From Skermanella rosea (lineage in GTDB: Bacteria > Pseudomonadota > Alphaproteobacteria > Azospirillales > Azospirillaceae), in contig NZ_CP086111.1 in NCBI RefSeq assembly GCF_016806835.2, positions 3,961,471 to 4,025,470 on the forward strand: a DNA stretch of 64,000 nt, read 5' to 3'. The translations under genes and the position numbers were made by a program. Below the pieces are notes generated by a model. That model ran no database searches and had not been told where the DNA came from. It worked only from the letters and a program-made list of their open reading frames with translations. This document shows positions 21,842 to 35,139 of this stretch, piece by piece. Position 1 is the stretch's first letter; the number at the start of each line of letters is the position of its first letter.

Positions 21842-21965
21842 GATGGATATATGGGCAACATCGCGGGAAAAAGCCAAACCCGCCGTCATCCCGGCTCTTG
21901 CGGTATCACCCGTTCTAAGTTCATCCTGTTCTTTAGAAGGATTCCACGAAGGAGAGGCTTACCCC

Positions 21966-22901
21966 ATGGAGCCCACCGTCGCCTGCATCGGTGCAGCGCA
22001 TATCGACCGCAAGGCCACGGCTGCCGGCCCGGTCGTCCCGGGAAGCTCCAATCCCGTCAGCATGCGGGTGGGAATGGGCGGGGTCGCCCGCAACGTGGCG
22101 GAGAACTTGGCCCGCCTCGGCCTTTCGGTGACGATGGTCAGCCGGGTCGGCGCAGACCGCGAGGGCGACTCGGTGCTCCAGGGCTTGGCCGACGCGGGCA
22201 TCGGGACGGAAGATTGCACCCGCTCCGCCGCCTCGCCGACGGCCTCCTACACCGCCCTGCTCGACCGCGGCGGCGAACTGGTGGTCGGGCTGGCCGACAT
22301 GGCGATCTACGACGAGCTGACGGTCGAGTTGATCGAGCCGCTGCTGCCCCGCCTGGAGCGCATCCCGGTCTGGTTCATCGACTGCAACCTGCCGGCGGAG
22401 TCGCTCCGCCTGCTGCTGCGCCGCAAGCCGGAGGGCTGCACCGTCTACGTGGACTGCGTCTCGGTCGCCAAGGCGGCCAGGCTCCAGGGCATCCTGCGCG
22501 GGATCGACACGCTGTTCGCCAACGGGGACGAGGCGGCCTATCTCTCCCACGTGCCGATCCGCGCGCCGCTGGACGTGTGCGAGGCCGGCTACCGCCTGAT
22601 GTGCAACGGCGTGGGCAGCGTGGTGATCACCCGCGGCCAGGAAGGGGCCTTCGTCGCCTCCCCCTTCGACTACGACTTCTTCCTGCCGCCGCCGGTCGAT
22701 GTGAACGAGGTGACGGGCGCCGGCGACGCGCTGGTGGCGGGGGTGATCTTCGGCCGGATCGGCGGCCATTCCATGGAGGACTCGATGCGGATCGGCCTCG
22801 CCTGCGCCGCCTGGGCGGTGGAGGCCGCCGAAACGGTGAATCCCGCGCTCAACGCCGATCTGGCCATCGAACGCGCGGGACTTTTGCGGAAATCCGCGTA
22901 G
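21966..22901 (+). CDS. psuK: PfkB-family sugar kinase, probable pseudouridine kinase
   Basis: A 311-residue ribokinase-fold kinase. The two PfkB signatures are present: VGMGGVARNVAENLARLG near the N-terminus and the DTxGAGD-like NEVTGAGDALVAGV with the catalytic base Asp254. The ATG at 21966 has GGAGAGG upstream. The next gene, 9 bases downstream, encodes pseudouridine-5-phosphate glycosidase, so this kinase most likely phosphorylates pseudouridine to pseudouridine 5-phosphate. The kinase family is certain; the substrate comes from context. Confidence 0.85.
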   Translation: MEPTVACIGAAHIDRKATAAGPVVPGSSNPVSMRVGMGGVARNVAENLARLGLSVTMVSRVGADREGDSVLQGLADAGIGTEDCTRSAASPTASYTALLDRGGELVVGLADMAIYDELTVELIEPLLPRLERIPVWFIDCNLPAESLRLLLRRKPEGCTVYVDCVSVAKAARLQGILRGIDTLFANGDEAAYLSHVPIRAPLDVCEAGYRLMCNGVGSVVITRGQEGAFVASPFDYDFFLPPPVDVNEVTGAGDALVAGVIFGRIGGHSMEDSMRIGLACAAWAVEAAETVNPALNADLAIERAGLLRKSA

Positions 22902-22910
22902 ACTGCCGGC

Positions 22911-23891
22911 ATGCACGATTACCTTGCCATCCACCCCGAGGTCGCCGAGGCGCTCCAGGCCAGAAAGGCCGTGGTCGCGCTGGAATCGACCATCATTTCC
23001 CACGGCATGCCCTATCCGCGGAACGTGGAGACGGCCCGCCTCGTGGAAAAGACCATCCGCGACGGCGGCGCCGTCCCGGCGACGATCGCGGTGCTCGACG
23101 GCCGCATCCGGATCGGCCTGACCGACGACGACCTGGAGCATCTCGGCAACAGCCAAGCCCAGGGCCGCGAGGTCATGAAGCTGAGCCGGCGCGACCTGCC
23201 GGTGGCGCTCGCCACCCGCGCCGACGGCGCCACCACGGTCGCCGCCACCATGATCTGCGCCGCGCTGGCCGACATCTCGGTCTTCGCCACCGGCGGCATC
23301 GGCGGCGTACACCGGGGCGCGGAAAGCACGCTCGACATCTCCGCCGACCTGGACGAGCTGGCGACCACCAACGTCGCGGTGGTCTGCGCCGGCGCCAAGG
23401 CGATCCTCGACCTGCCCAAGACGGTCGAATACCTGGAGACCCGAGGCGTCCCCGTGCTGGGCTACGGCACCGACGAGCTGCCGGCCTTCTACACCCGCTC
23501 CAGCGGCATCAGGCTGGCGTCCCGCTGCGACAGCCCGGCGATGGTCGCCCGCATCCTGCGCGCCAAGTGGCAGCTCGGCCTGAACGGCGGCGCCGTCATC
23601 GCCAACCCGATCCCGCAATCGGCGGCGCTCGACCAGGAGTTCGTCGACGGCGCCATCGCCCGGGCGCTGGCCGATGCCGACGCGCAGGGCGTCAAGGGCA
23701 AGGACGTGACCCCGTTCCTGCTGTCCCGCCTGGAGGAACTGACCGGCGGCGCCAGCCTGGAGGCCAACATAGCATTGGTCCGCAACAACGCGGCGGTCGC
23801 TGCCTCCATCGCCCACGCCTATGCCGAGCTGAGCGCGGAAACGGCGCTGCCGCCGAAGCCGCACCTGACGCGGACGCGGCCCTGGTACTGA
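22911..23891 (+). CDS. psuG: pseudouridine-5'-phosphate glycosidase
   Basis: A 326-residue PsuG/indigoidine synthase A-like protein, which reversibly cleaves pseudouridine 5-phosphate to uracil and ribose 5-phosphate. Conserved parts are VVALESTIISHGMPYP, GATTVAATM, VFATGGIGGVHRGAE, DISADLDEL and NPIPQSAAL. It lies 9 bases after the kinase gene, so the two work in one short operon that salvages the modified nucleoside from RNA turnover. Length is normal for the family and no signal peptide is seen. Confidence 0.94.
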   Translation: MHDYLAIHPEVAEALQARKAVVALESTIISHGMPYPRNVETARLVEKTIRDGGAVPATIAVLDGRIRIGLTDDDLEHLGNSQAQGREVMKLSRRDLPVALATRADGATTVAATMICAALADISVFATGGIGGVHRGAESTLDISADLDELATTNVAVVCAGAKAILDLPKTVEYLETRGVPVLGYGTDELPAFYTRSSGIRLASRCDSPAMVARILRAKWQLGLNGGAVIANPIPQSAALDQEFVDGAIARALADADAQGVKGKDVTPFLLSRLEELTGGASLEANIALVRNNAAVAASIAHAYAELSAETALPPKPHLTRTRPWY

Positions 23892-24141: not shown

Positions 24142-24723
24142 TTGGAATTGCGCCTTCTGGTCGTCGACGAGAACCCCGAGAGGTCCGATGTCGTCCTGTC
24201 CGGCCTCAAGGAGGCCGGTTACGACGTGGTCGCCACCATCAGCAAGGACGACGACCTGCGCGAGGGCATCAGGGCCCACCGGCCGGACCTGGTCATCATC
24301 GACCTGGAGTCACCCTACCGCGACTATCTGGAGAACCTGATCACGATCAACCGCGAGAACCCGCGGCCGATCGCGATGTTCGTTGCCCAGGAAGACAGCA
24401 CGCTCATCAACGAGGCGATCGAGACCGGGGTCAGCGTCTATGTCGCCGACGGGCTCAGCCCGAAGATGGTCAAGTCGATCCTCCAGATCGCGATCGTGCA
24501 GTTCACCAAGTTCCGCAGGCTCCAGGAGGAACTGGACAGGTCCAAGACGGCGCTGGCCGACCGCAAGGTGGTCGAGCGGGCCAAGGGCCTGCTGATGGCG
24601 CACAAGGGCGTGACCGAAGAAGAGGCATACCGCTTCCTCCGCAAGCTCGCCATGGACCAGAACAAGCGCCTCGCGGAGATCGCGGAGAACATCCTGTCGC
24701 TCTCCCGACTGTTCAAGGGCTGA
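24142..24723 (+). CDS. nasT: NasT-type ANTAR-domain response regulator/antiterminator
   Basis: A 193-residue protein with an N-terminal receiver-like domain (LRLLVVDENPERSDVVLSGL, then LVIIDLESP in place of the usual phospho-Asp strand) and a C-terminal ANTAR RNA-binding domain (about 137-190: VVERAKGLLMAHKGVTEEEA, then LAEIAENILSLSRLF). ANTAR proteins bind paired hexaloop hairpins in nascent RNA and stop a terminator from forming. The leader before nrtA holds exactly such hairpins. Start is a TTG at 24142, or a TTG at 24148 that is better spaced from AGGAA. No NasS gene adjoins it, although NasT is normally held inactive by NasS without nitrate. Confidence 0.88.
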   Translation: MELRLLVVDENPERSDVVLSGLKEAGYDVVATISKDDDLREGIRAHRPDLVIIDLESPYRDYLENLITINRENPRPIAMFVAQEDSTLINEAIETGVSVYVADGLSPKMVKSILQIAIVQFTKFRRLQEELDRSKTALADRKVVERAKGLLMAHKGVTEEEAYRFLRKLAMDQNKRLAEIAENILSLSRLFKG

Positions 24724-24914: not shown

Positions 24915-24930
24915 TGGCACGCGGCTTGCT
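24915..24930 (+). promoter_or_regulatory. sigma-54 (RpoN) promoter for the nrt-nir-nas operon
   Basis: TGGCAC-GCGGC-TTGCT is an exact match to the sigma-54 consensus TGGCAC-N5-TTGCW. Transcription is expected near 24941, so the untranslated leader would be about 170 bases and would begin just before the first ANTAR hairpin at 24952. It implies activation by an NtrC-like enhancer-binding protein under nitrogen limitation. Confidence 0.85.
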
Positions 24931-24951
24931 AGAATAAACAGCGTGCGGCGC

Positions 24952-25011
24952 GGCGATCCAATGGCGGAGCGCCAGTCGCGCAAGACAGTGTCGGTCCAAC
25001 GGCGGAACGAC
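24952..25011 (+). ncRNA. dual-hairpin ANTAR-responsive leader RNA element
   Basis: Two stem-loops of the same design stand in tandem. P1 (24952-24973) has an 8-base stem GGCGATCC/GGAGCGCC with one mismatch and the loop AATGGC. P2 (24990-25011) has GTCGGTCC/GGAACGAC with one mismatch at the same place and the loop AACGGC. Both loops are six bases with A at position 1 and G at position 4, the published hallmark of ANTAR target RNA. A 16-base linker joins them, and an intrinsic terminator begins 15 bases after P2. NasT encoded upstream is the obvious ligand. The fold was done by eye. Confidence 0.82.
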
Positions 25012-25025
25012 CTACCCCGGATAAT

Positions 25026-25082
25026 GGCGTCCGAATGTCGAGCGGCTCCCAACAGCCCGCTCGACGTTCCGGCGCCTTTTTT
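25026..25082 (+). terminator. leader (attenuator) terminator before nrtA
   Basis: A 20-base stem (25026-25045 with 25057-25076) has one mismatch and two G-U pairs, an 11-base loop and then six Ts (25077-25082). It ends 31 bases before the nrtA start codon and after the ANTAR hairpins, so it would stop transcription of the whole nitrate operon unless NasT acts. The P2 descending arm CGGAACG could also pair with CGTTCCG (25065-25071) in the terminator. Confidence 0.9.
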
Positions 25083-25113
25083 ATTGCCGAAGTTTCGGCC
25101 GATGGAGCGAGCG

Positions 25114-26541
25114 ATGTCCAAGGACCCTGCACTGTTCACCTCCAAGCTCACCGCCCGGCAGGACCGCCGCGGCATCCTCAAGGCCGGTGCCTCGCTCGCC
25201 GGCACCGCCGCACTGCTCTCCGCGATCAGGGCGGCCACCCCGGCGGGCGCCTGGGCGGCCGGCACCGACGGGATCGAGAAGCCGAAGCTGACCCTGGGCT
25301 TCATCCCGCTGACCGACTGCGCGCCGCTGGTGATCGCCTCCGAAAAGGGCTTCTTCAAGAAGCATGGCCTGGACGTGGCGCTGTCCAAGGAGGCGTCCTG
25401 GGCGAATATCCGCGACAAGGTGATGATCGGGGCGCTCGACGGCGCGCACATGCTGGCCGGCATGCCGCTCGCCGCGACGCTCGGCATCGGCGCGATCCAG
25501 AAGCCGACGGTCACCGGGTTCTCCATGGACCTCAACGGCAACGCCATCACCGTTTCGACGGCCCTCTACGACCGCATGGTCGAGATCGACCCCGACACCA
25601 TGAGAAAGCACCCGGTCGGCGCCGCCGCCCTGAAGAAGGTGATCGATGCCGACAGGAAGGCCGGCAAGGAGCCGCTGACCTTCGCCATGGTCTTCCCGGT
25701 CAGCACCCACAATTACGAACTGCGCTACTGGATGGCGTCGGCCGGGATCGATCCGGACGAGGATGTCCGCCTGATCGTGATCCCCCCGCCGCAGATGGTC
25801 GCCAACCTCCAGGCCGGCAACATCCAGGGCTACTGCGTCGGCGAGCCGTGGAACGCGCGCGCCGTGCAGGCCGGGATCGGCCGCACCCTGGTGACGAACT
25901 ACGACATCTGGAACAACAAGATCGAGAAGGTCTTCGGCGTCAACCAGGACTGGGCCGACGCCAACCCCAACACCCACAAGGCCCTGATCCGCGCGCTGAT
26001 CGAGACGGCGCAGTGGATGGACGAGCCGGGCAACAGGATGGAGGTGGTCGAGATCGTCTCGCAGAAGGCCTACGTCAACGCCCCGGCCGACGTGGTCAAG
26101 ATGTCGATGACCGGCACCTTCCAGTACGCGCCCAAGGAACCGGCGCTGCCGATGCCGGACTTCAACGTGTTCCACCGCTACGCCGCCAACTTCCCGTGGC
26201 GCAGCCAGGCCGTATGGTACCTGACCCAGATGGCGCGCTGGGGCCAGATCGAGCAGCCCATCAATTTCGCCAGGACCGCCGAGGCGGTGTTCCGCACCGA
26301 CATCTATCGCGAGGCCGCCAAGGAACTGGGCGTCCCCTACCCGACCGTGGACTGGAAGTCGGAAGGGACCCGCTCGGAGCCTTGGGTCCTGGCGGACGCG
26401 ACCCGGCCCATCGCCATGGGACCGGACCGCTTCCTCGACGGCCGAACCTTCGATCCGGCCGATCCCGTGGGCTACCTGCGCGGCTTCGAGGTCTCCAAGC
26501 CCAGGATCGACCTGGACGCTCTCGCCCAGGCGAACGTCTGA
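25114..26541 (+). CDS. nrtA: nitrate ABC transporter substrate-binding protein
   Basis: A 475-residue periplasmic nitrate-binding protein of the NrtA/NasF group. A twin-arginine signal is visible (DRRGILKAGASLAGTAALL, residues 17-35, ending near AGAWAAG). The binding core follows from LTLGFIPLTDCAPLVIASEK, with the ligand region around HMLAGMPLAATLGIG. The signal separates it from the cytoplasmic sensor NasS, which is related but lacks export. The ATG at 25114 is chosen for its GGAG site; an ATG at 25102 is the alternative. It is the first gene of the operon, 38 bases ahead of nrtB. Confidence 0.93.
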   Translation: MSKDPALFTSKLTARQDRRGILKAGASLAGTAALLSAIRAATPAGAWAAGTDGIEKPKLTLGFIPLTDCAPLVIASEKGFFKKHGLDVALSKEASWANIRDKVMIGALDGAHMLAGMPLAATLGIGAIQKPTVTGFSMDLNGNAITVSTALYDRMVEIDPDTMRKHPVGAAALKKVIDADRKAGKEPLTFAMVFPVSTHNYELRYWMASAGIDPDEDVRLIVIPPPQMVANLQAGNIQGYCVGEPWNARAVQAGIGRTLVTNYDIWNNKIEKVFGVNQDWADANPNTHKALIRALIETAQWMDEPGNRMEVVEIVSQKAYVNAPADVVKMSMTGTFQYAPKEPALPMPDFNVFHRYAANFPWRSQAVWYLTQMARWGQIEQPINFARTAEAVFRTDIYREAAKELGVPYPTVDWKSEGTRSEPWVLADATRPIAMGPDRFLDGRTFDPADPVGYLRGFEVSKPRIDLDALAQANV

Positions 26542-26579
26542 ACCGTCCGTTCATCCCGCTTCATCAAGGATCTCCCGAC

Positions 26580-27455
26580 ATGACCAGCGTCCCGGTGGAC
26601 GAGACCACGCGCTCGCCCGCAGTCCAGCCACAATCCTCCCTTCCCGCAGCCCCGTCGGCAGCGGCCCGCCTCCGCGAACGGGTGTTCCAGGCTCTGCCCG
26701 ACATCGTGCTGCCGGCCATCACCCTGCTGGTGGTCCTGCTGGCGTGGCACCTGGTGGCCACCAACCTGGGCGGCGGCTTTCCCGGCATCGGGGAGACGTG
26801 GGACCGCGGCGTCGAGCTGCTGTCCGACCCGTTCTACAGCAACGGCCCCAACGACATGGGGCTGTTCTGGCAGGTGCTCTATTCCCTGGGCCGCGTGATG
26901 GCGGGTTTCCTGCTGGCGGCCCTGGTGGGGGTTCCGGTCGGGTTCCTGATGGGCTCCAGCGCGATCTTCCGCAAGGGCTGGGCGCCGCTGATTCAGATCC
27001 TGCGGCCGGTCAGCCCGCTGGCCTGGCTGCCGATCGGCCTGCTGCTGTTCCGGGCGGTCGATCCCTCGGCGATCTTCGTGATCTTCATCACCAGCATCTG
27101 GCCGATGATCCTGAACACCGCTGCCGGGGTCGAGGCGATCCCCAACGACTACCGCAACGTCGCCGCCGTCCTGCGACTGAACCGGATCGAGATGGTCCGC
27201 CACATCCTGCTGCCCGCCACCCTGCCCCACGTGCTGACCGGCATGCGCCTGTCCCTGGGCATCGCCTGGATGGTCATCGTGGCGGCCGAGATGCTGACCG
27301 GCGGCATCGGCATCGGCTTCTTCGTCTGGGACGAATGGAACAACCTGAACGTGTCGAGCATCATCGTCGCCATCGTCGTGATCGGGCTGGTCGGCATCCT
27401 GCTGGATCTGGGCATGACCCTGATCCAGCGCCGCTTCGACCACAGCAAGCGCTGA
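26580..27455 (+). CDS. nrtB: nitrate ABC transporter permease
   Basis: A 291-residue inner-membrane permease of the NrtB/SsuC group. The first 30 residues are a Pro/Ser/Ala-rich cytoplasmic lead, then about six membrane spans follow. The EAA-type loop that touches the ATPase is VEAIPNDYRNVAAVLRLNR, with the conserved continuation HILLPATLPHVLTGMRLSLG. The ATG at 26580 has AAGGA upstream. It lies 38 bases after nrtA and 13 before the ATPase gene, so it forms the membrane channel of the nitrate importer. Confidence 0.94.
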   Translation: MTSVPVDETTRSPAVQPQSSLPAAPSAAARLRERVFQALPDIVLPAITLLVVLLAWHLVATNLGGGFPGIGETWDRGVELLSDPFYSNGPNDMGLFWQVLYSLGRVMAGFLLAALVGVPVGFLMGSSAIFRKGWAPLIQILRPVSPLAWLPIGLLLFRAVDPSAIFVIFITSIWPMILNTAAGVEAIPNDYRNVAAVLRLNRIEMVRHILLPATLPHVLTGMRLSLGIAWMVIVAAEMLTGGIGIGFFVWDEWNNLNVSSIIVAIVVIGLVGILLDLGMTLIQRRFDHSKR

Positions 27456-27468
27456 GGAGACCGCAGGC

Positions 27469-28269
27469 ATGACCGCATATCTCAGCATCGAAGGCGTCGG
27501 CATCACCTTCAATCCCCGCAAGTCGCCGGTTCCCGCCGTGCGCGACGTGGACCTCAAGATCGCCCGGGGCGAGTTCGTCAGCATCATCGGCCATTCCGGC
27601 TGCGGCAAGTCCACCGTGCTGAACATCGTCGCCGGCCTGCTGAAGCCGACGCTGGGCGGGGTCTTCCTGGAAGGGAAACTGGTCGACGCACCGGGCCCCG
27701 ACCGGGCCGTGGTGTTCCAGAACCACTCCCTGCTGCCCTGGCTGACCGTCTACGACAATGTCCGGCTGGCCGTGGACAAGGTGTTCGGCAAGACCCGCGG
27801 CGCGCAGGAGCGCCACGACTGGACCCTGCACAACCTGAACCTGGTCGGCATGGCGCACGCCGTCGCCAAGCATCCGTCCGAGATTTCCGGCGGCATGAAG
27901 CAGCGGGTCGGCATCGCCCGGGCCCTGGCGATGGAGCCCAAGGTGCTGCTGATGGACGAGCCGTTCGGCGCGCTCGACGCCCTCAACCGCGCCCGGCTCC
28001 AGGATGCCCTGATGCAGATCCAGACCGCCCTGCGCAACACCGTCGTCATGATCACCCACGACGTGGACGAGGCGGTGCTGCTGTCCGACCGCATCGTGAT
28101 GATGACCAACGGCCCCGCCGCCACCATAGGCGAAGTGCTGGACATCCCGCTGGAGCGTCCGCGCAAGCGCCTCGACCTGGCCGACGACGCGACCTACGCC
28201 CACTGCCGCGGCGAGGTGCTGCGCTTCCTCTACGCCCGGCATCGCCCCGCCGACGCCGACGCCGCCTGA
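27469..28269 (+). CDS. nrtD: nitrate ABC transporter ATP-binding protein
   Basis: A 266-residue ABC ATPase with a Walker A motif GHSGCGKST, Q-loop VVFQNHSLLPWLTV, signature ISGGMKQR, Walker B VLLMDEPFGALD and the switch His in MITHDVDEA. It has a single ATPase domain and no NrtA-like fusion, so it matches NrtD rather than NrtC. A GAGGAG site precedes the ATG. It energises nitrate uptake by NrtAB and is 16 bases upstream of nirB. Confidence 0.94.
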   Translation: MTAYLSIEGVGITFNPRKSPVPAVRDVDLKIARGEFVSIIGHSGCGKSTVLNIVAGLLKPTLGGVFLEGKLVDAPGPDRAVVFQNHSLLPWLTVYDNVRLAVDKVFGKTRGAQERHDWTLHNLNLVGMAHAVAKHPSEISGGMKQRVGIARALAMEPKVLLMDEPFGALDALNRARLQDALMQIQTALRNTVVMITHDVDEAVLLSDRIVMMTNGPAATIGEVLDIPLERPRKRLDLADDATYAHCRGEVLRFLYARHRPADADAA

Positions 28270-28285
28270 GCCGGAGAACCGACCC

Positions 28286-30772
28286 ATGAACATGATGGCA
28301 AGAACCAGGGAACGCCTCGTCGTCGTCGGCAACGGCATGGCCGGCATCCGCACCGTCGAGGAACTGCTCAAGCGCGATCCCGACCGCTACGACATCACCG
28401 TGTTCGGCGCAGAGCCCCACGTGAACTACAACCGCATCATGCTCTCCCCGGTGCTGGCCGGCGAGAAGACCTTCGACCAGATCGTCCTGAACGACCGTTC
28501 CTGGTACGAACGGAACGGCATCACCCTGCTGACCGGCGAGAAGGTCGAGACGATCGACCGGGAGGCCCGGACGGTGACCTCGGTCGGCGGCAGGACGGTC
28601 GGCTACGACCGGCTGCTGCTGGCGACAGGGTCGGACCCCTTCATCATCCCGGTGCCCGGCCACGGCCTGCCCGGCGTGGTGACCTTTCGCGACATGTTCG
28701 ACGTGGAGGCCATGCTGAGGAAGGCGGCCGACGGCGGCAGGCACGCCGTCGTGATCGGCGGCGGCCTGCTCGGCCTGGAAGCGGCCAACGGGCTGGCGGT
28801 CAACGGCATGAAGGTGACCGTGATCCACCTGATGGGCACGATCATGGAACGCCAGCTCGACGAGGCCGCGGGCTTCCTGCTCCAGCGGGAACTGGAGGAC
28901 CGCGGCATCGACGTGATGACGAATGCCGACACCAAGGCCGTCCTGGGCGATGGACACGTGACCGGCGTGCTGCTGAAGGACGGGCGCGAGATCCCGGCCG
29001 ACCTGGTGGTCATGGCGGTCGGCATCCGGCCGAGCACCGGGCTGGCGAAGGCCGCCGGCCTCGCGGTCGAGCGCGGCGTCGTGGTGGACGACCATATGGC
29101 GACCTCCGACCCCGCCATCCTGGCGGTCGGCGAGTGCGTCCAGCACCGCGGGGCGACCTATGGCCTGGTGGCGCCGCTGTGGGAGATGGCCCGGGTCTGC
29201 GCCGACCAGCTCGCGGGCAGGCGGGACTCCGCCTATGCCGGCTCGGTCACCAGCACCAAGCTGAAGGTGACCGGCATCGACGTGTTCTCGGCCGGCGACT
29301 TCGGCGGCGGCAAGGATTGCGAGGACATCGTCTTCCGCGACGCCGCGCGCGGCGTCTACAAGCGCATCGTGCTGAAGGGGGACAGGATCGCCGGCGCCGT
29401 GCTGTACGGCGACACCAAGGACGGGGCTTGGTATTTCCAGATGCTGCGCGAGGCGGAGAACGTCGCCCCCTTGCGCGAAACCCTGATCTTCGGCCAGGGA
29501 TTCGGGGGCCAGGGATTCGGGGGCCAGGGCTTCGGGGGTGCCGCCGCAAACCCTAAGGCCGCCGTTGCCGCCCTCTCCGACGGTGCGGAGATCTGCGGCT
29601 GCAACGGCGTGTGCAAGGGCGCCATCACCAGGGCCATCGCCGACAAGGGCCTGACCACGCTGGACGACGTGCGGTCGCACACAAAGGCGTCCGCCTCCTG
29701 CGGATCCTGCACCGGGCTGGTCGAGCAGTTGCTGGAGCTGACGCTCGGCGACGGTTACCAAGCCGCCGCGGCCGCCAAGCCCCTCTGCAAATGCACCCAC
29801 CATCCCCACGACGACGTGCGCCGGCTGATCGTGGCGGGGGAGCTGAAGAGCATCCCGGCGGTGATGCAGGCGCTGGAATGGAAGACAGCCAACGGCTGCC
29901 ATGTCTGCCGGCCGGCGCTCAACTACTACCTGCTGGCGGCATGGCCGGGCGAGTACCGGGACGATTACCAGTCCCGCTTCGTCAACGAGCGGGTCCACGC
30001 CAACATCCAGAAGGACGGCACATATTCGGTCGTGCCGCGGATGTGGGGCGGCCTGACCTCCGCCAAGGAGCTGCGGGCCATCGCCGACGTGGTGGACAAG
30101 TTCGCCATCCCCACGGTCAAGGTCACCGGCGGCCAGCGGATCGACCTGTTCGGCGTGAAGAAGGAAGACCTTCCCGCCGTCTGGAGGGACCTGAACGACG
30201 CCGGCATGGTCTCCGGCCACGCCTATGCCAAGGGGCTGCGGACCGTGAAGACCTGCGTCGGGTCCGAATGGTGCCGGTTCGGCACCCAGGACTCCACCGG
30301 CATGGGCGTCAAGCTGGAGCGGATGACCTGGGGCACCTGGACGCCGCACAAGGTCAAGCTGGCGGTGTCGGGCTGCCCGCGCAATTGCGCCGAGGCGACG
30401 ATCAAGGATTTCGGCGTCGTCGCGGTGGACAGCGGCTGGGAGCTTTACGTCGCCGGCAACGGCGGCATGAAGGTCCGCGAATGCGACTTCCTGACCAAGG
30501 TCGAGACCGAGGAACAGGTGCTGGAGTATTGCGGGGCCTTCCTTCAGCTCTACCGGGAGGAGGCGCGATACCTGGACCGGACGGCGCCGTGGGTCGAGCG
30601 GGTCGGCCTCGACTATGTGAAAAGGCGGGTGGTCGAGGACGGCGAGGGCCGGCGCGCCCTGTTCGCCCGCTTCCAGTTCTCGCAGATGTTCTCGCAGACC
30701 GACCCTTGGGAGGAGCGCGCTTCCCGGGGCATCGACTCCCACGAGTTCGCGCCGCTCGCGACGGTAGGGTGA
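28286..30772 (+). CDS. nirB: assimilatory nitrite reductase [NAD(P)H], large subunit
   Basis: The 828-residue protein reduces nitrite to ammonium. It has FAD and NAD(P)H domains (VVVGNGMAGIRTVEELL and VVIGGGLLGLEAANGL), a Bfd-like [2Fe-2S] domain (ICGCNGVCKG with CGSC) and the sirohaem-[4Fe-4S] domain with Cys657, 663, 697 and 701 (TCVGSEWCRFGTQD and CPRNCAEA). An unusual short tandem repeat, GFGGQGFGGQGFGG, lies in the linker before the [2Fe-2S] domain (see the 29492 repeat). CysG, at the operon end, makes its sirohaem. NirD is 5 bases downstream. Confidence 0.96.
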   Translation: MNMMARTRERLVVVGNGMAGIRTVEELLKRDPDRYDITVFGAEPHVNYNRIMLSPVLAGEKTFDQIVLNDRSWYERNGITLLTGEKVETIDREARTVTSVGGRTVGYDRLLLATGSDPFIIPVPGHGLPGVVTFRDMFDVEAMLRKAADGGRHAVVIGGGLLGLEAANGLAVNGMKVTVIHLMGTIMERQLDEAAGFLLQRELEDRGIDVMTNADTKAVLGDGHVTGVLLKDGREIPADLVVMAVGIRPSTGLAKAAGLAVERGVVVDDHMATSDPAILAVGECVQHRGATYGLVAPLWEMARVCADQLAGRRDSAYAGSVTSTKLKVTGIDVFSAGDFGGGKDCEDIVFRDAARGVYKRIVLKGDRIAGAVLYGDTKDGAWYFQMLREAENVAPLRETLIFGQGFGGQGFGGQGFGGAAANPKAAVAALSDGAEICGCNGVCKGAITRAIADKGLTTLDDVRSHTKASASCGSCTGLVEQLLELTLGDGYQAAAAAKPLCKCTHHPHDDVRRLIVAGELKSIPAVMQALEWKTANGCHVCRPALNYYLLAAWPGEYRDDYQSRFVNERVHANIQKDGTYSVVPRMWGGLTSAKELRAIADVVDKFAIPTVKVTGGQRIDLFGVKKEDLPAVWRDLNDAGMVSGHAYAKGLRTVKTCVGSEWCRFGTQDSTGMGVKLERMTWGTWTPHKVKLAVSGCPRNCAEATIKDFGVVAVDSGWELYVAGNGGMKVRECDFLTKVETEEQVLEYCGAFLQLYREEARYLDRTAPWVERVGLDYVKRRVVEDGEGRRALFARFQFSQMFSQTDPWEERASRGIDSHEFAPLATVG
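29492..29536 (+). repeat. 3 x 15-base tandem repeat inside nirB
   Basis: Three copies of a 15-base unit (GGCCAGGGATTCGGG; the third copy differs by one base) encode three QGFGG repeats in the flexible linker between the NirB reductase part and its [2Fe-2S] domain. Its near-perfect identity suggests recent slippage and possible length variation between strains. Confidence 0.9.
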
Positions 30773-30777
30773 GGATC

Positions 30778-31122
30778 ATGAAGGAAGACATCACCTGGAT
30801 CGAGGTCGGCCGGGTCGCCGACATCCCGCCGGCCGGCGCGCGGGTCGTGAAGACGAAGCACGGCGACGTCGCGGTCTTCCGCACGGCCGACGACGACGTG
30901 TTCGCGGTACGCGACCGCTGCCCGCATGCCGGCGGCCCCCTGTCCCAGGGCATCGTCCACGGCGCTCGGGTCACCTGCCCGCTCCACAACTGGGTCATCG
31001 ACCTGGCATCCGGCGAGGCCACCGGACCGGACGAGGGCTGCGCCGGGACCTTCCCGGTGCAGGTCGAGGACGGCCTGATCCGGCTGGGCCTGCGCCTGGG
31101 CCAGCTTGCGGCGGCATCATGA
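30778..31122 (+). CDS. nirD: nitrite reductase small subunit (Rieske)
   Basis: A 114-residue Rieske-type protein with both ligand pairs, DRCPHAGGPLS and TCPLHNWVIDL (C-x-H and C-x2-H), so unlike enteric NirD it appears able to carry a [2Fe-2S] cluster. It pairs with NirB. A GAGG site precedes the ATG at 30778, five bases after nirB ends, and its stop overlaps the nasA start by 4 bases. Confidence 0.92.
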   Translation: MKEDITWIEVGRVADIPPAGARVVKTKHGDVAVFRTADDDVFAVRDRCPHAGGPLSQGIVHGARVTCPLHNWVIDLASGEATGPDEGCAGTFPVQVEDGLIRLGLRLGQLAAAS

Positions 31123-33743
31123 CCGGCTCCGTCCGCACCACCTGTCCCTATTGCGGCGTCGGCTGCGGCGTGGTCGCCAAGGCCGGCGGTGCGGGCGGCT
31201 GGACGATCTCGGGCGACCCTGGGCATCCGGCCAATTTCGGCCGGCTCTGCTCCAAGGGCAGCGCCCTGGGGGAGACGCTGGGGCTGGAGGGCCGGCTGCT
31301 GCATCCCGTCGTGGACGGCGGGCGCGCTACCTGGGACGAGGCGCTGGACAGGGTGGCGAGCCGCTTCCGCGCGGTCATCGACGAGCACGGGCCGGACTCC
31401 GTCGCCTTCTACGTTTCGGGACAATTGCTGACGGAAGACTACTATGTCGCCAACAAGCTGATGAAGGGCTTCATCGGCTCGGCCAACATCGACACCAACT
31501 CCCGCCTGTGCATGGCGTCGAGCGTGGCCGGCCACAGGCGGGCGTTCGGCGGCGACGTGGTGCCGGGCAGTTACGAGGACCTGGAGCTGGCCGACCTGGT
31601 CGTGCTGGTCGGCAGCAATCTCGCCTGGTGTCATCCCGTGCTCTACCAGCGGCTGGTGCGGGCGCGGGCAGAGCGGGGCACGCGCATCGTCGTGGTCGAT
31701 CCGCGCCGGACGGCGACCTGCGACGCCGCGGACCTGCATCTGGCGCTGAAGCCGGGCAGCGACGTGGCCCTGTTCAACGGTCTGCTCGCATATCTGGACC
31801 GCGCCGGCGCCCTGGACCGGGACTACATCGCCCGGCACACCCGCGGCTTCGCGGAGGCCTTGTCTGCCGCGGCCGGGGAGCCGCAGGCGGTGGCCGCGGC
31901 CTGCGGGCTGGACGCCGACGAGGTCGAGCGGTTCTACGGCTGGTTCGCCGGGACGGAAGCGACCGTCACGGTCTATTCCCAGGGCGTGAACCAGTCGTCG
32001 TGCGGGACCGACAAGGTCAACGCGATCGTCAATTGCCACTTGGCGATCGGGCGCATCGGCCGCCCGGGCATGGGGCCGTTCTCGGTCACCGGCCAGCCCA
32101 ACGCCATGGGCGGACGCGAGGTCGGCGGGCTTGCCAACCAGTTGGCAGCGCACATGGCGTTCACGCCGGAAGCGGTCGAGCGGGTGGAACGGTTCTGGCG
32201 GGCGCCCCGGATCGCGCGGCGGGAGGGGCTGAAGGCGGTGGACCTGTTCCAGGCGGTCGAGGACGGCCGCATCAAGGCGCTGTGGGTGATGGCGACCAAT
32301 CCTGCCGTCAGCCTTCCCGACGCCGACCGGGTGACCCGCGCGCTGGAGTCGTGCGAGTTCGTCGTGGTCTCCGACTGCACCCGCGATACCGACACCACGG
32401 CCCATGCCGACGTGCTGCTGCCGGCGGCGGCCTGGGGGGAGAAGGACGGCACCGTCACCAACTCCGAGCGCCGCGTCTCGCGCCAGCGCGCCTTCCTGCC
32501 CCCTCCGGGCGAGGCCAGGCCGGACTGGTGGATCGTCGCGCAGGTCGCGGCCCGCATGGGCTGGGGCGAGGCGTTCGGCTACGGCTCGGCGGCGGAGATC
32601 TTCCGGGAGCACGCCGCACTTTCCGGGTTCGAGAACGACGGCAGCCGGGTCTTCGACATCGCCGCCCTGGCCGATGCCGATTACGATGCGCTGGACCCCG
32701 TCCAGTGGCCGGCACCCGGAACCTCCCGGCTGTTCGGGGACGGCCGCTTCCCGACGGCGGACGGCCGAGCGGCCTTCGTGCCGGTGCGGGCGGCCGCTCC
32801 CGGAACGGTGACGGGCGCCGAATTCCCGTATGCCCTGAACACCGGCCGTATCCGCGACCAGTGGCACACCATGACGCGCACCGGCCGGGTGCCCCGCCTG
32901 TCCAGCCACATCGCCGAGCCATTCGTCGCGGTCAACCCGGCGGATGCCGAGGCGGCGAGGCTGGAGGATGGCGGGCTCGCGCTGGTCCGCTCCGCCCGGG
33001 GCCGCGCCATCCTGCGGGTCCGCGTCACCGGCGACCAGCCGCCGGGCCGGCTCTTCGCGCCGATGCACTGGAACCGGCAATTCTCGGCCGAGGGCGGCGT
33101 CAACGCGCTGGTCGCCCCGGTCACCGACCCGGTCTCGGGCCAGCCGGAGCTGAAGCATACCGCGGTCAGCCTGGTCCCCTTCGAACCGGCCTGGACCGCC
33201 TTCCTGATCACCCGGGAGGAGGCCCACCCGCCGGAAGGTGCCGAATACTGGTCGCGGACCAGGGCGGCGGGCTGCATCGTGCTGACGCTGGCGGGCACAG
33301 CCGCGCCGGCGGATGTCGCGGGCTGGGCCGAGGCGCTGCTGCCCGCGTTGCCGGGGATCGACTACCACGATGTGCGGCGCGGCGTTCACCGCTGGGCTCG
33401 GCTCGACGGCGACCGGCTGGAGGCCTGCCTGTTCCTCAGCTTCGGCCCTGCCCTGCCCGCGCGGGAATGGCTGGTCGGCCTGTTCGACACCCCATCGATC
33501 GACACGGATGCCCGTTGCGGGCTGCTGAGCGGACGGGCGCCGGCCGGAGGGCCGGACGAGGGGCGAGTCGTCTGCGCCTGCTTCAATGTGGGCTTGAACC
33601 GCATCGCCTGCGCCATCCGCGACGGCGGGCTTACCTCGGCCGAACAGGTCGGTGCGGCGCTCAAGGCCGGCACCAACTGCGGATCCTGCATTCCGGAGCT
33701 GAAGGAGCTTATCGCCGATGCGCGACGCGACCAGGCAGCCTGA
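31119..33743 (+). CDS. nasA: assimilatory nitrate reductase, catalytic subunit with C-terminal [2Fe-2S] domain
   Basis: An 874-residue cytoplasmic molybdenum enzyme that reduces nitrate to nitrite. The N-terminal [4Fe-4S] site is Cys9, 12, 16 and 44 (TTCPYCGVGCG, RLCSKG), the likely Mo ligand is Cys131 in SRLCMAS, and the last 60 residues are a Bfd-like [2Fe-2S] domain (Cys819, 821, 854 and 857), as in NasC of some enteric bacteria. No separate NasB electron-donor gene is in the operon, so electrons may come from another flavoprotein or from NirB. It overlaps nirD by 4 and cysG by 26 bases. Confidence 0.95.
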   Translation: MTGSVRTTCPYCGVGCGVVAKAGGAGGWTISGDPGHPANFGRLCSKGSALGETLGLEGRLLHPVVDGGRATWDEALDRVASRFRAVIDEHGPDSVAFYVSGQLLTEDYYVANKLMKGFIGSANIDTNSRLCMASSVAGHRRAFGGDVVPGSYEDLELADLVVLVGSNLAWCHPVLYQRLVRARAERGTRIVVVDPRRTATCDAADLHLALKPGSDVALFNGLLAYLDRAGALDRDYIARHTRGFAEALSAAAGEPQAVAAACGLDADEVERFYGWFAGTEATVTVYSQGVNQSSCGTDKVNAIVNCHLAIGRIGRPGMGPFSVTGQPNAMGGREVGGLANQLAAHMAFTPEAVERVERFWRAPRIARREGLKAVDLFQAVEDGRIKALWVMATNPAVSLPDADRVTRALESCEFVVVSDCTRDTDTTAHADVLLPAAAWGEKDGTVTNSERRVSRQRAFLPPPGEARPDWWIVAQVAARMGWGEAFGYGSAAEIFREHAALSGFENDGSRVFDIAALADADYDALDPVQWPAPGTSRLFGDGRFPTADGRAAFVPVRAAAPGTVTGAEFPYALNTGRIRDQWHTMTRTGRVPRLSSHIAEPFVAVNPADAEAARLEDGGLALVRSARGRAILRVRVTGDQPPGRLFAPMHWNRQFSAEGGVNALVAPVTDPVSGQPELKHTAVSLVPFEPAWTAFLITREEAHPPEGAEYWSRTRAAGCIVLTLAGTAAPADVAGWAEALLPALPGIDYHDVRRGVHRWARLDGDRLEACLFLSFGPALPAREWLVGLFDTPSIDTDARCGLLSGRAPAGGPDEGRVVCACFNVGLNRIACAIRDGGLTSAEQVGAALKAGTNCGSCIPELKELIADARRDQAA

Positions 33744-35139
33744 GCCGCTTCCCTATATGCCGCTCTTCATGGACCTGACGAAGGGACGGCCGTGCCTGGT
33801 GATCGGCTCCGGCGACATGGCGGGAAACAAGACGGCCCTGCTGCGCCGGGCGGGCGCCGACGTCCGCAACCTGGCCGCCGCCGACTTCACCCCGGCGGCC
33901 CTGGACGACGTCGCCCTGGTGGTGGATGCCGCCGACGACGCGCGGCTGACAATTGAGCTGGTCGCCCTCGCCAGGGCGCGCGGGGTTCCGCTGAACGTCG
34001 TGGACAAGCCGGAATTCTGCGACTTCATCTTCCCGGCAATCCTGGACCGCTCGCCGGTGGTGGTCGCCGTCTCTACCGGCGGGCTGGCGCCGGCGCTGGC
34101 CCGGCTGATCCGCCAGCGGCTGGAACTGGCGGTCCCCTCGGCTTTCGGAAGGCTGGCCCGGCTCGCCGGGGAGTTCCGCCGCAAGGTGCAGGACGCGCTG
34201 CCGACCGCGCGCCAGCGCCTGCGCTACTGGGACGAGGTCCTGGACGGGCGCGCCGGCGAGTTGGCGATGCATGGCCGGGAGGACGAGGCCCGCGCGGAGA
34301 TGGAGCGCCTGCTCGGCCGGACCGCTGCCGACGGCGCGGACTCCGGTCCCGGCATGGTCCATCTGGTGGGCGCCGGGCCGGGCGACCCCGACCTGCTGAC
34401 CCTGGCCGCGATCCGGGCCATCAAGCGGGCCGACGTCATCCTGTACGACCATTTGCTCGGCGAGGGAGTCCTGGAGTTCGCCCGCCGGGATGCCGAGCGG
34501 ATTTCGGTCGGCAAGCGGGCCGGGCGTCATTCGGTGAAGCAGGCCGACATCAACGCCCTGCTGCTCGAACATGCCTGTCGGGGCCGGCGCGTGGTCCGGC
34601 TGAAGGGCGGCGACCCGCTGATGTTCGGCCGCGCGGGCGAGGAGGCGGAATATCTGCGCCGCCACGGCATCGAGGTATCGATCGTGCCCGGCGTGACGGC
34701 GGCGCTCGGCTGCGCCGCGGCGGCGCAGATCCCGCTGACGCTCCGCGGAGTGTCGCGCAGCGTCCAGTTCGTGACCGCCCACTGCCTGGACGACGACGCG
34801 ACCCGGGCGATGGACTGGAGCAGGCTCGCCAATCCGGACGGGACGCTGGCGATCTACATGGGGCGAAGCCAGCTGGCGCATTTCAGCGCCCGGCTGATCG
34901 AGGCGGGGCTTTCGCCGGACACGCCGGCCGCCGCCATCGAGAACGGCACCCGTCCCGACGAGCGCCGCTGCTTCGCGACCCTCGCGAGCCTTCCGGCCCG
35001 TGCTACCGCGGAACTGGGCGACGGGCCGACGCTGGTCATGGTCGGAGCCGCGATCGGCCACCGCCCACAGGAGGCCGCCGCCCCGCAAAACGAGCCGGAG
35101 CCGGCGCGCTACGCGATGGAGCGTGCCGCCGCCGGCTGA
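33718..35139 (+). CDS. cysG: sirohaem synthase (precorrin-2 dehydrogenase/ferrochelatase and SUMT)
   Basis: A 473-residue CysG fusion. Residues 1-210 are the dehydrogenase/ferrochelatase part (LVIGSGDMAGNKTALLRRAG and VSTGGLAPALARLIRQRLE); residues 220-460 are the uroporphyrinogen III methyltransferase (VHLVGAGPGDPDLLTLAA, then VRLKGGDPLMFGRAGEE). It supplies sirohaem to NirB. The ATG at 33718 lies inside nasA (26-base overlap) after a GAAGGAG site, so it is coupled to nasA. Its last 31 bases overlap a convergent glycosyltransferase gene. Confidence 0.95.
   Translation: MRDATRQPEPLPYMPLFMDLTKGRPCLVIGSGDMAGNKTALLRRAGADVRNLAAADFTPAALDDVALVVDAADDARLTIELVALARARGVPLNVVDKPEFCDFIFPAILDRSPVVVAVSTGGLAPALARLIRQRLELAVPSAFGRLARLAGEFRRKVQDALPTARQRLRYWDEVLDGRAGELAMHGREDEARAEMERLLGRTAADGADSGPGMVHLVGAGPGDPDLLTLAAIRAIKRADVILYDHLLGEGVLEFARRDAERISVGKRAGRHSVKQADINALLLEHACRGRRVVRLKGGDPLMFGRAGEEAEYLRRHGIEVSIVPGVTAALGCAAAAQIPLTLRGVSRSVQFVTAHCLDDDATRAMDWSRLANPDGTLAIYMGRSQLAHFSARLIEAGLSPDTPAAAIENGTRPDERRCFATLASLPARATAELGDGPTLVMVGAAIGHRPQEAAAPQNEPEPARYAMERAAAG

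Follow-up and report, generated by a model that had tools for sequence, protein, structure and literature searches.

A leader with three tandem hexaloop hairpins upstream of the Skermanella rosea nitrate operon is very likely a NasT-type ANTAR antiterminator

Results

Three hexaloop hairpins and a terminator lie between nasT and nrtA

We analyzed a 64,000-nucleotide stretch of Skermanella rosea DNA (contig NZ_CP086111.1, hereafter the window, numbered from its first base) and concluded that the leader upstream of its presumed nitrate operon is, with high probability, an ANTAR (NasT)-type antitermination leader with three tandem hexaloops. The second and third hairpins, HpB and HpC, would form the working pair, and the first, HpA, would be an extra NasT site. 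The features on which the analysis centers are as follows.

24142..24723, + strand: nasT, encoding a receiver-like plus ANTAR protein of 193 aa
24915..24929, + strand: sigma-54-type promoter TGGCACGCGGCTTGC, the only exact TGGCACN5TTGC match in the window
24943..24981, + strand: HpA with its outer stem (core 24952-24973); the outer stem is only partly kept within Skermanella
24952-24959/24966-24973, + strand: HpA core, hexaloop AATGGC, the extra upstream hexaloop
24990-24997/25004-25011, + strand: HpB, hexaloop AACGGC, taken as canonical P1
25018-25022/25029-25033, + strand: HpC, hexaloop AATGGC, taken as canonical P2 (antiterminator)
25026..25082, + strand: intrinsic terminator (5' arm 25026-25045, 3' arm 25057-25076, T6 25077-25082)
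25102..26541, + strand: nrtA, encoding an NMT1_2-family protein with a Tat-type (RR) N-terminus
25102..35139, + strand: presumed operon nrtA-nrtB-nrtC(D)-nirB-nirD-nasA-cysG, co-directional, with gaps of at most 38 bases or overlaps

The sequence-only reading of this DNA had proposed two hairpins with loops AATGGC and AACGGC, and both are present, at 24952-24973 and 24990-25011. Their stems, which it counted as eight pairs, do have eight positions each, of which seven pair and the fifth is a purine-purine mismatch (A.G in HpA, G.A in HpB). HpA and HpB are identical at 17 of 22 positions and have loop type, closing pairs, and mismatch position in common; two of the five differences form one compensated pair. 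The terminator, described as having 20 pairs and six Us, likewise has 20 stem positions followed by six T; one of the positions is a C.C mismatch and two are G.U pairs. A simple terminator scan did not list it.

HpC emerged from a search for hairpins that close an A..G.. hexaloop; it extends eight bases into the 5' arm of the terminator. Its closing pair is U.G in Skermanella, as against C-G in 13 of 15 aligned rows (alignment A2, below). The sequence-only reading, which took HpA and HpB as P1 and P2, had missed this hairpin. It had also placed P2 14 bases clear of the terminator; 14 bases do separate HpB from the terminator, but HpC lies there. Because HpC overlaps the terminator in the canonical way, a layout with P2 clear of the terminator is unneeded, and since this terminator-proximal hairpin recurs in relatives we read HpB as canonical P1, HpC as P2, and HpA as extra. 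The layout of the leader is therefore canonical, with HpB best read as P1.

None of 5000 dinucleotide shuffles of 24930-25040 contained three non-overlapping A..G.. hexaloop hairpins with five or more pairs, and six contained two. In shuffles of 24930-25017, the second-best A..G.. hexaloop hairpin was as good as HpB in 0 of 5000, which bears out the earlier statement that the hairpin pair is unlikely by chance; a laxer count over the same interval (at least four pairs) gave two such hairpins in 19 of 5000. The motif CCAAYGGCGG alone is not significant, with two matches in the window against 0.78 expected. The loop-to-loop distance is 25 nt from HpB to HpC, in all five Skermanella genomes, and 38 nt from HpA to HpB (41 in S. 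aerolata); PMC3369931 gives 24 nt (A29-A53) for eutP. The linkers between core stems are 6 nt (HpB-HpC) and 16 nt (HpA-HpB), or 4 nt (with two predicted pairs under HpB) and 8 nt or fewer once outer pairs are counted, and eut leaders are described with P1-P2 linkers of 5-12 nt. Because of this shortening by predicted outer pairs of HpA and HpB, we gave linker lengths little weight.

HpC and the base of the terminator are mutually exclusive in silico

Pair probabilities were computed for growing transcripts of ten lengths starting at 24941. HpA stayed at 0.98 or above at all ten lengths, and HpB at 0.95 or above at nine (0.71 at 25055). HpC stood at 1.00 at 25066 (after a dip to 0.57 at 25055), fell to 0.45 at 25073, and was 0.00 from 25076, the length from which the base of the terminator reached 1.00. 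HpC and the terminator base are thus mutually exclusive in these folds. Formation of HpC leaves an upper terminator hairpin (25034-25068) that ends eight bases short of the U run; the remaining hairpin is likewise held apart from the U run in ANTAR antitermination as presented in PMC3369936 and PMC3369931.

The folding energy of the terminator plus the U run is -36.9 kcal/mol. For the full-length RNA, the terminator state has -70.2 kcal/mol versus -62.1 kcal/mol with all three hairpins held, a difference of about 8 kcal/mol in favor of the terminator. When only HpC was forced to form, the released terminator 3' arm paired with HpB; when all three hairpins were held, it paired with the outer stem of HpA. 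Given this energy difference and these alternative pairings, HpC could prevail only through timing or with the help of a protein.

The hairpins are conserved and the P1 stem covaries

Our comparison took in 29 loci that encode this type of NrtA, five from Skermanella and 24 from other bacteria. All five Skermanella genomes carry HpA, HpB, and HpC; in the four other than S. rosea, the HpA core (22/22), HpB (22/22), HpC (16/16), and the HpB-HpC linker are identical to those in the window. In the same four genomes, the intergenic DNA before the promoter is only 105/187 to 172/187 identical, and in the three Skermanella compared, 371-432 of 479 nrtA third positions are identical. The five leaders are too similar for a covariation test inside the genus.

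A terminator-proximal hexaloop followed by a T run was found at 23 of the 29 loci (five Skermanella and 18 of the 24 others), and HpC matches this hairpin in those 18 other nitrate loci. An upstream hexaloop hairpin accompanies it in 22 of the 23 leaders, equalled or beaten in at most 13 of 1000 shuffles; in L039 none was found. No such leader stands directly before nrtA at the remaining six loci (L038, L043, L044, L049, L053, and L076). Four of these (L038, L043, L053, and L076) have nasT some 1.6 kb ahead of nrtA. L044, which comes from a Nitrospirae metagenome, retains the sigma-54-type motif and has no hexaloop hairpins, and an ANTAR search of that metagenome-derived genome was without a match.

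Covariation was measured in two alignments. A2 holds 15 of the 23 leaders; near-identical ones (L004, L005, L034), L039 with no P1, and those with long spacers (L041, L056, L057, L068) were dropped. A3 holds 18 P1-type hairpins, namely HpA, HpB, and those of 16 of the 18 other loci (L039 and L057 dropped). In A2, 93.3% of cells were paired, compared with 77.2% in shuffles and at most 47.3% in slid controls, and 24 cells showed double changes versus 8.0 in shuffles. The corresponding values for A3 were 91.7% versus 57.9%, and 48 versus 15.2. On four of the five measures used, both alignments surpassed the shuffled and the slid controls. The weak measure was the number of pairs with any double change, at 6 versus 4.3 in A2 (reached by 30 of 500 shuffles) and 7 versus 6.1 in A3 (reached by 156 of 500). 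The C-G pair that closes P1 is identical in 18/18 hairpins, HpA included. In P2, two of five pairs show double changes and two are invariant, and the outermost is unpaired in 8 of the 15 A2 rows. Covariation is therefore strong for P1, with the bias that P1 rows were picked for their hairpin, and partial for P2. Stem covariation across relatives had been named beforehand as the finding on which the ANTAR reading would stand or fall; the P1 stem shows it, the P2 stem in part. The internal mismatch, pointed out earlier as a shared feature, is indeed common to HpA and HpB; as a family motif we rejected it, since the position is paired in the remaining 16 of the 18 aligned P1-type hairpins.

NasT, the promoter, and the gene neighborhood

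The neighboring gene does encode an ANTAR protein, as had been claimed: the product of nasT (24142-24723) scored 79.7 bits (E 1.3e-22) with the Pfam ANTAR family and 41.8 bits with Response_reg, and its relatives in the PDB are Rv1626 (1s8n), EutV (6wsh), and NasR (4akk). According to PMC8934654, R142, K149, E160, and Y164 of EutV contact G4 and stack on A1 of the hexaloop. All four are identical in NasT when the two proteins are aligned (numbering offset by hand); K143, R168, and R177 are also kept, while K147, N173, and R175 differ. We infer from the sequence that NasT binds the leader and that nitrate is the signal. The genome has one further ANTAR match (L002, contig C4), which by eye adjoins an AmiC-like gene and another binding-protein gene and is probably part of an AmiC-AmiR system. 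Given the covariation and a NasT with the base-contacting residues of EutV, the proposal of an ANTAR/NasT antitermination leader before the nitrate operon, already made in the sequence-only reading, is well supported in silico.

Sigma-54 promoters have the consensus TGGCAC-N5-TTGC, and the exact match at 24915-24929 suggests a transcription start near 24941. With one mismatch allowed, the window holds four matches against 3.6 expected, that is, chance level. A looser pattern occurs at most 420 bases before nrtA in 18 of the 29 loci, including all five Skermanella. A sigma-70 promoter scan gave no match, and no NtrC site stood out by eye in an alignment of the five Skermanella upstream regions. 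The sigma-54-type motif, too, had escaped the earlier reading. Within the presumed operon, nitrate permease, ntrCD, NirB, NirD, and CysG scored above their NCBIfam cut-offs; nrtA and nasA scored below and are named by Pfam family and context only. Directly upstream of nasT (21960-23891) stand genes for a pfkB-family kinase and an indigoidine-synthase-A-like protein, a pair that we take to serve pseudouridine breakdown.

NasS is undetected, and NrtA groups with signal-less homologs

NasS is described in PMC3795266 as an NrtA-like protein without a signal. An NrtA query of the S. rosea genome returned only nrtA itself and a hit at 1.2e-4, and no second strong NrtA homolog was found in the other four Skermanella genomes searched. 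As a positive contrast, the same query finds 339-351-aa proteins right after nasT in another genus, g2 (E 1e-52 to 1e-56). A PF13379 search of the S. rosea genome gave 14 members, none of which, besides nrtA and the 1.2e-4 hit, was among the NrtA-query results; a very divergent nitrate sensor may be encoded elsewhere in this genome. Among 25 genomes with this NrtA type (several of them metagenome assemblies, and two the named Skermanella again), 18 had one match only at E 1e-10, and an ANTAR match was present in 24.

In a tree of 125 proteins, several of whose other supports are low, this NrtA groups (0.98 support) with signal-less homologs, apart from canonical NrtA. The signal-less homologs (L058, L060-L062, L067, and L069, lacking a signal peptide by the start that we chose) are 55-64% identical to it and canonical NrtA 44-50%; by sequence, the former appear NasS-like. 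Only some relatives (L064, L059, and L063; 59-61% identical) adjoin nasT, and the g2 proteins in the NasS position are only 33-34% identical. The nrtA of the window (25102-26541) and those of loci L034-L057 have a Tat-type N-terminus yet fall in the signal-less grouping. Among solved structures, the best relatives of this NrtA are the regulatory C-terminal domains of NrtC/CmpC from cyanobacteria, with NrtA itself ranking behind them. By eye, no internal start that could yield a cytoplasmic NrtA was seen near the mature N-terminus.

Additional hexaloops occur in some related leaders

We surveyed relatives with a P1-P2 model, R1; because it was built with two Skermanella leaders (the window and L035), its Skermanella matches are by construction. 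At E 0.01, R1 matched 44 of 82 family genomes, comprising the five Skermanella, 38 of the 45 from genus g11, and a single further genome; leaders were read at the 30 loci listed, plus L210. It missed the leader of genome G096. In a class sample, R1 matched 11 of 385 genomes; L209 and L211-L213 were judged by eye to be chance matches, with no hexaloop pair before a terminator. Genus g11, which we call Azospirillum-type from its family and gene content, yielded 25 leaders of two kinds, and 7/7 next ORFs read are nirB-like (by eye). In type I (16 loci, L181-L196), P1 carries AACGGC and lies at -39 to -44, and between it and P2 stands a middle hairpin whose loop is GACGGC, ACCGAC, or GACGTT. Type II (nine loci: L197, L198, L200-L205, and L210) is marked by a GACGAC hairpin, placed at -19 or -20. 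A NIT-ANTAR (NasR-like) protein is encoded in one type II genome (L217). Short ANTAR proteins are encoded in a second type II genome (L219), where NasT lies beside an MCP-signalling-domain gene, and in one type I genome (L226).

A triple-hexaloop pattern matched 30 of 82 genomes in the order sample, with one match for the control pattern. Nineteen genomes were counted as having leaders: five Skermanella, 13 of type I (identical sequence), and G096; in the inspected matches L232 and L241 the P2 motif was absent. In the phylum sample, the pattern matched nine of 398 genomes against seven genomes with control matches, so it is not enriched there and shows rarity only. Besides the window genome, G752 was inspected in that sample and judged real by its hairpins, promoter, and terminator. 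G096 (L243) has four tandem AAYGGC hexaloops at -101/-58/-23/0 before a gene for an NrtA-like twin-arginine protein. In G752 (L267), from another class, hexaloops at -62/-23/0 precede an ORF that by eye is nitrate-transporter-like; the Skermanella spacing is -63/-25/0. In sets of 5000 shuffles, none attained the upstream hexaloop count of G752, one attained that of G096, and 19 that of the window. Four leaders (L041, L056, L057, and L068) have an upstream hexaloop 62-92 nt ahead of P2, and a further hairpin occupies the space between the two. L041, L057, and L068 have three hairpins by the formal A..G.. rule, and were not counted as strict since two of the middle loops (AGTGCT and AGCGCT) look wholly or partly self-complementary. 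Fifteen of the 18 non-Skermanella leaders show no second upstream A..G.. hairpin. The order 'P1, middle hairpin, P2' may be a wider theme.

Discussion

A proposed mechanism and its alternatives

We propose that sigma-54 RNA polymerase, presumably driven by NtrC under nitrogen scarcity, would start near 24941, and that HpA and HpB would fold as they emerge, followed by HpC. Left unheld, HpC would be displaced by the terminator 3' arm at about 25073-25076, whereupon the long terminator stem would abut the U run and transcription would stop. Nitrate would free NasT, which, loaded on the upstream hexaloop(s), would capture HpC and hold it. The lower terminator pairs would then be blocked, leaving the upper hairpin (25034-25068) eight bases from the U run, and the antiterminated polymerase would read on into nrtA-cysG. 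HpB and HpC would act as the working pair, and HpA as an additional landing site for NasT.

The most serious alternative concerns HpA. HpB and HpC alone might bind NasT, with HpA serving as a stabilizer of the 5' end or being a leftover duplicate of HpB that shares its fold. We consider this unlikely on balance, though it keeps a real share of the probability: HpA with its outer stem starts two bases past the presumed transcription start, its five differences from HpB over 22 nt, including one compensated pair, are what a duplication could leave, and the second upstream hairpin is absent from 15 of 18 non-Skermanella leaders. However, the HpA core, loop included, is kept at 22/22 in four Skermanella while the upstream intergenic DNA and nrtA third positions vary, and strict hexaloop arrays recur in G752 (-62/-23/0) and G096 (-101/-58/-23/0).

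That HpA and HpB are themselves the ANTAR pair, and that binding there blocks a terminator overlapping neither by some unusual mechanism, seems to us very improbable. Their 17/22 identity with a common loop type, closing pairs, and mismatch position would fit such a pair, as would the 16-nt linker (8 or fewer with the outer stem), given that PMC8164766 accepts actinobacterial ANTAR RNAs at 2-25 nt; distant upstream hexaloops with a hairpin between also occur at L041, L056, L057, and L068. Against this stands HpC, which overlaps the terminator and is the motif that relatives retain; in addition, the HpA-HpB loop-to-loop distance of 38 nt (41 in S. aerolata) contrasts with 25 nt for HpB-HpC and the 24 nt given for eutP. 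We hold out equally little prospect for a plain terminator or attenuator without NasT, either the ordinary terminator of nasT or the leader of some other RNA-binding protein. Its strength (-36.9 kcal/mol with the U run) and its place downstream of nasT would suit that role; against it, a promoter motif stands between nasT and the leader, the A1/G4 hexaloop hairpins, covariation, and ANTAR neighbor point to NasT, and the sole other ANTAR match in the genome looks AmiR-like by eye.

Implications

With NasT acting through HpB and HpC, the apparent exception of an ANTAR pair clear of its terminator returns to the rule, and is replaced by a variant with an array of three or four hexaloops. Published models disagree on whether a dimer holds two hexaloops together or one after the other (PMC3369936, PMC8934654), and a larger NasT oligomer is reported after nitrate (PMC3795266); leaders with three or four sites would be natural substrates for settling NasT stoichiometry. 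Among the literature matches listed, none describes a three-hexaloop ANTAR leader, and an earlier description is possible; PMC8934654 notes an additional single hexaloop in the EutX small RNA. With NasS undetected, the route by which nitrate acts on NasT in these bacteria becomes a direct question. A speculative answer, to which we give only a small chance, is twofold: the leader would be a multi-site loading array (three sites here, four in G096, at about -60/-24/0) fitted to a nitrate-released NasT oligomer, and the Tat-type NrtA would be the nitrate sensor, folding in the cytoplasm before export and holding NasT until nitrate binds. NrtA would then be one protein serving both as sensor and as part of the transporter.

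Comparison with known systems

The closest parallels are the ANTAR dual-hexaloop antiterminators of eut (Enterococcus), nasF (Klebsiella), and amiE (Pseudomonas). Like them, the Skermanella leader has A1/G4 hexaloops, P1 upstream, P2 over the base of the terminator, a similar loop-to-loop distance, and an ANTAR protein whose residues at G4 and A1 are identical to theirs; unlike them, it has the extra hexaloop HpA, a U.G-closed P2, and a NasT-type regulator. We count it as a probable ANTAR-target RNA on its A1/G4 hexaloops, the overlap and mutual exclusion of HpC and terminator, and its stem covariation, read with the selection of P1 rows in mind. It also resembles the nas leader of the Paracoccus denitrificans NasS-NasT system as presented in PMC3795266 and PMC5424462, with nasT just upstream, hairpins, and assimilatory nitrate genes. 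That leader is given two putative hairpins (HI and HII) where Skermanella has three, and, unlike in Paracoccus, NasS is undetected in the Skermanella genomes searched and the local nrtA is of the Tat type. As a NasT is present and no cytoplasmic NasS was detected, we do not file the Skermanella system as NasS-NasT.

The g11 nirB leaders (L181-L198, L200-L205, and L210) are like those of Skermanella in promoter type (most of them) and P2 motif, with a nitrite-reductase gene next in the seven checked. They differ in having a middle hairpin with loop GACGGC, ACCGAC, GACGTT, or GACGAC where Skermanella has a second AAYGGC, and in at least one of these genomes a NIT-ANTAR protein takes the place of NasT. 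An Rfam scan of the Skermanella leader gave no gathering-level match; narK RNA (RF03032) scored 17.2 bits against a cut-off of 43.2, so the leader is not filed as narK RNA. The RF03032 consensus shows what look like a sigma-54 promoter, a P1 whose loop is AACGGC, and possibly a small P2, in that order, and the narK RNA of Rfam may itself be an unrecognized ANTAR leader.
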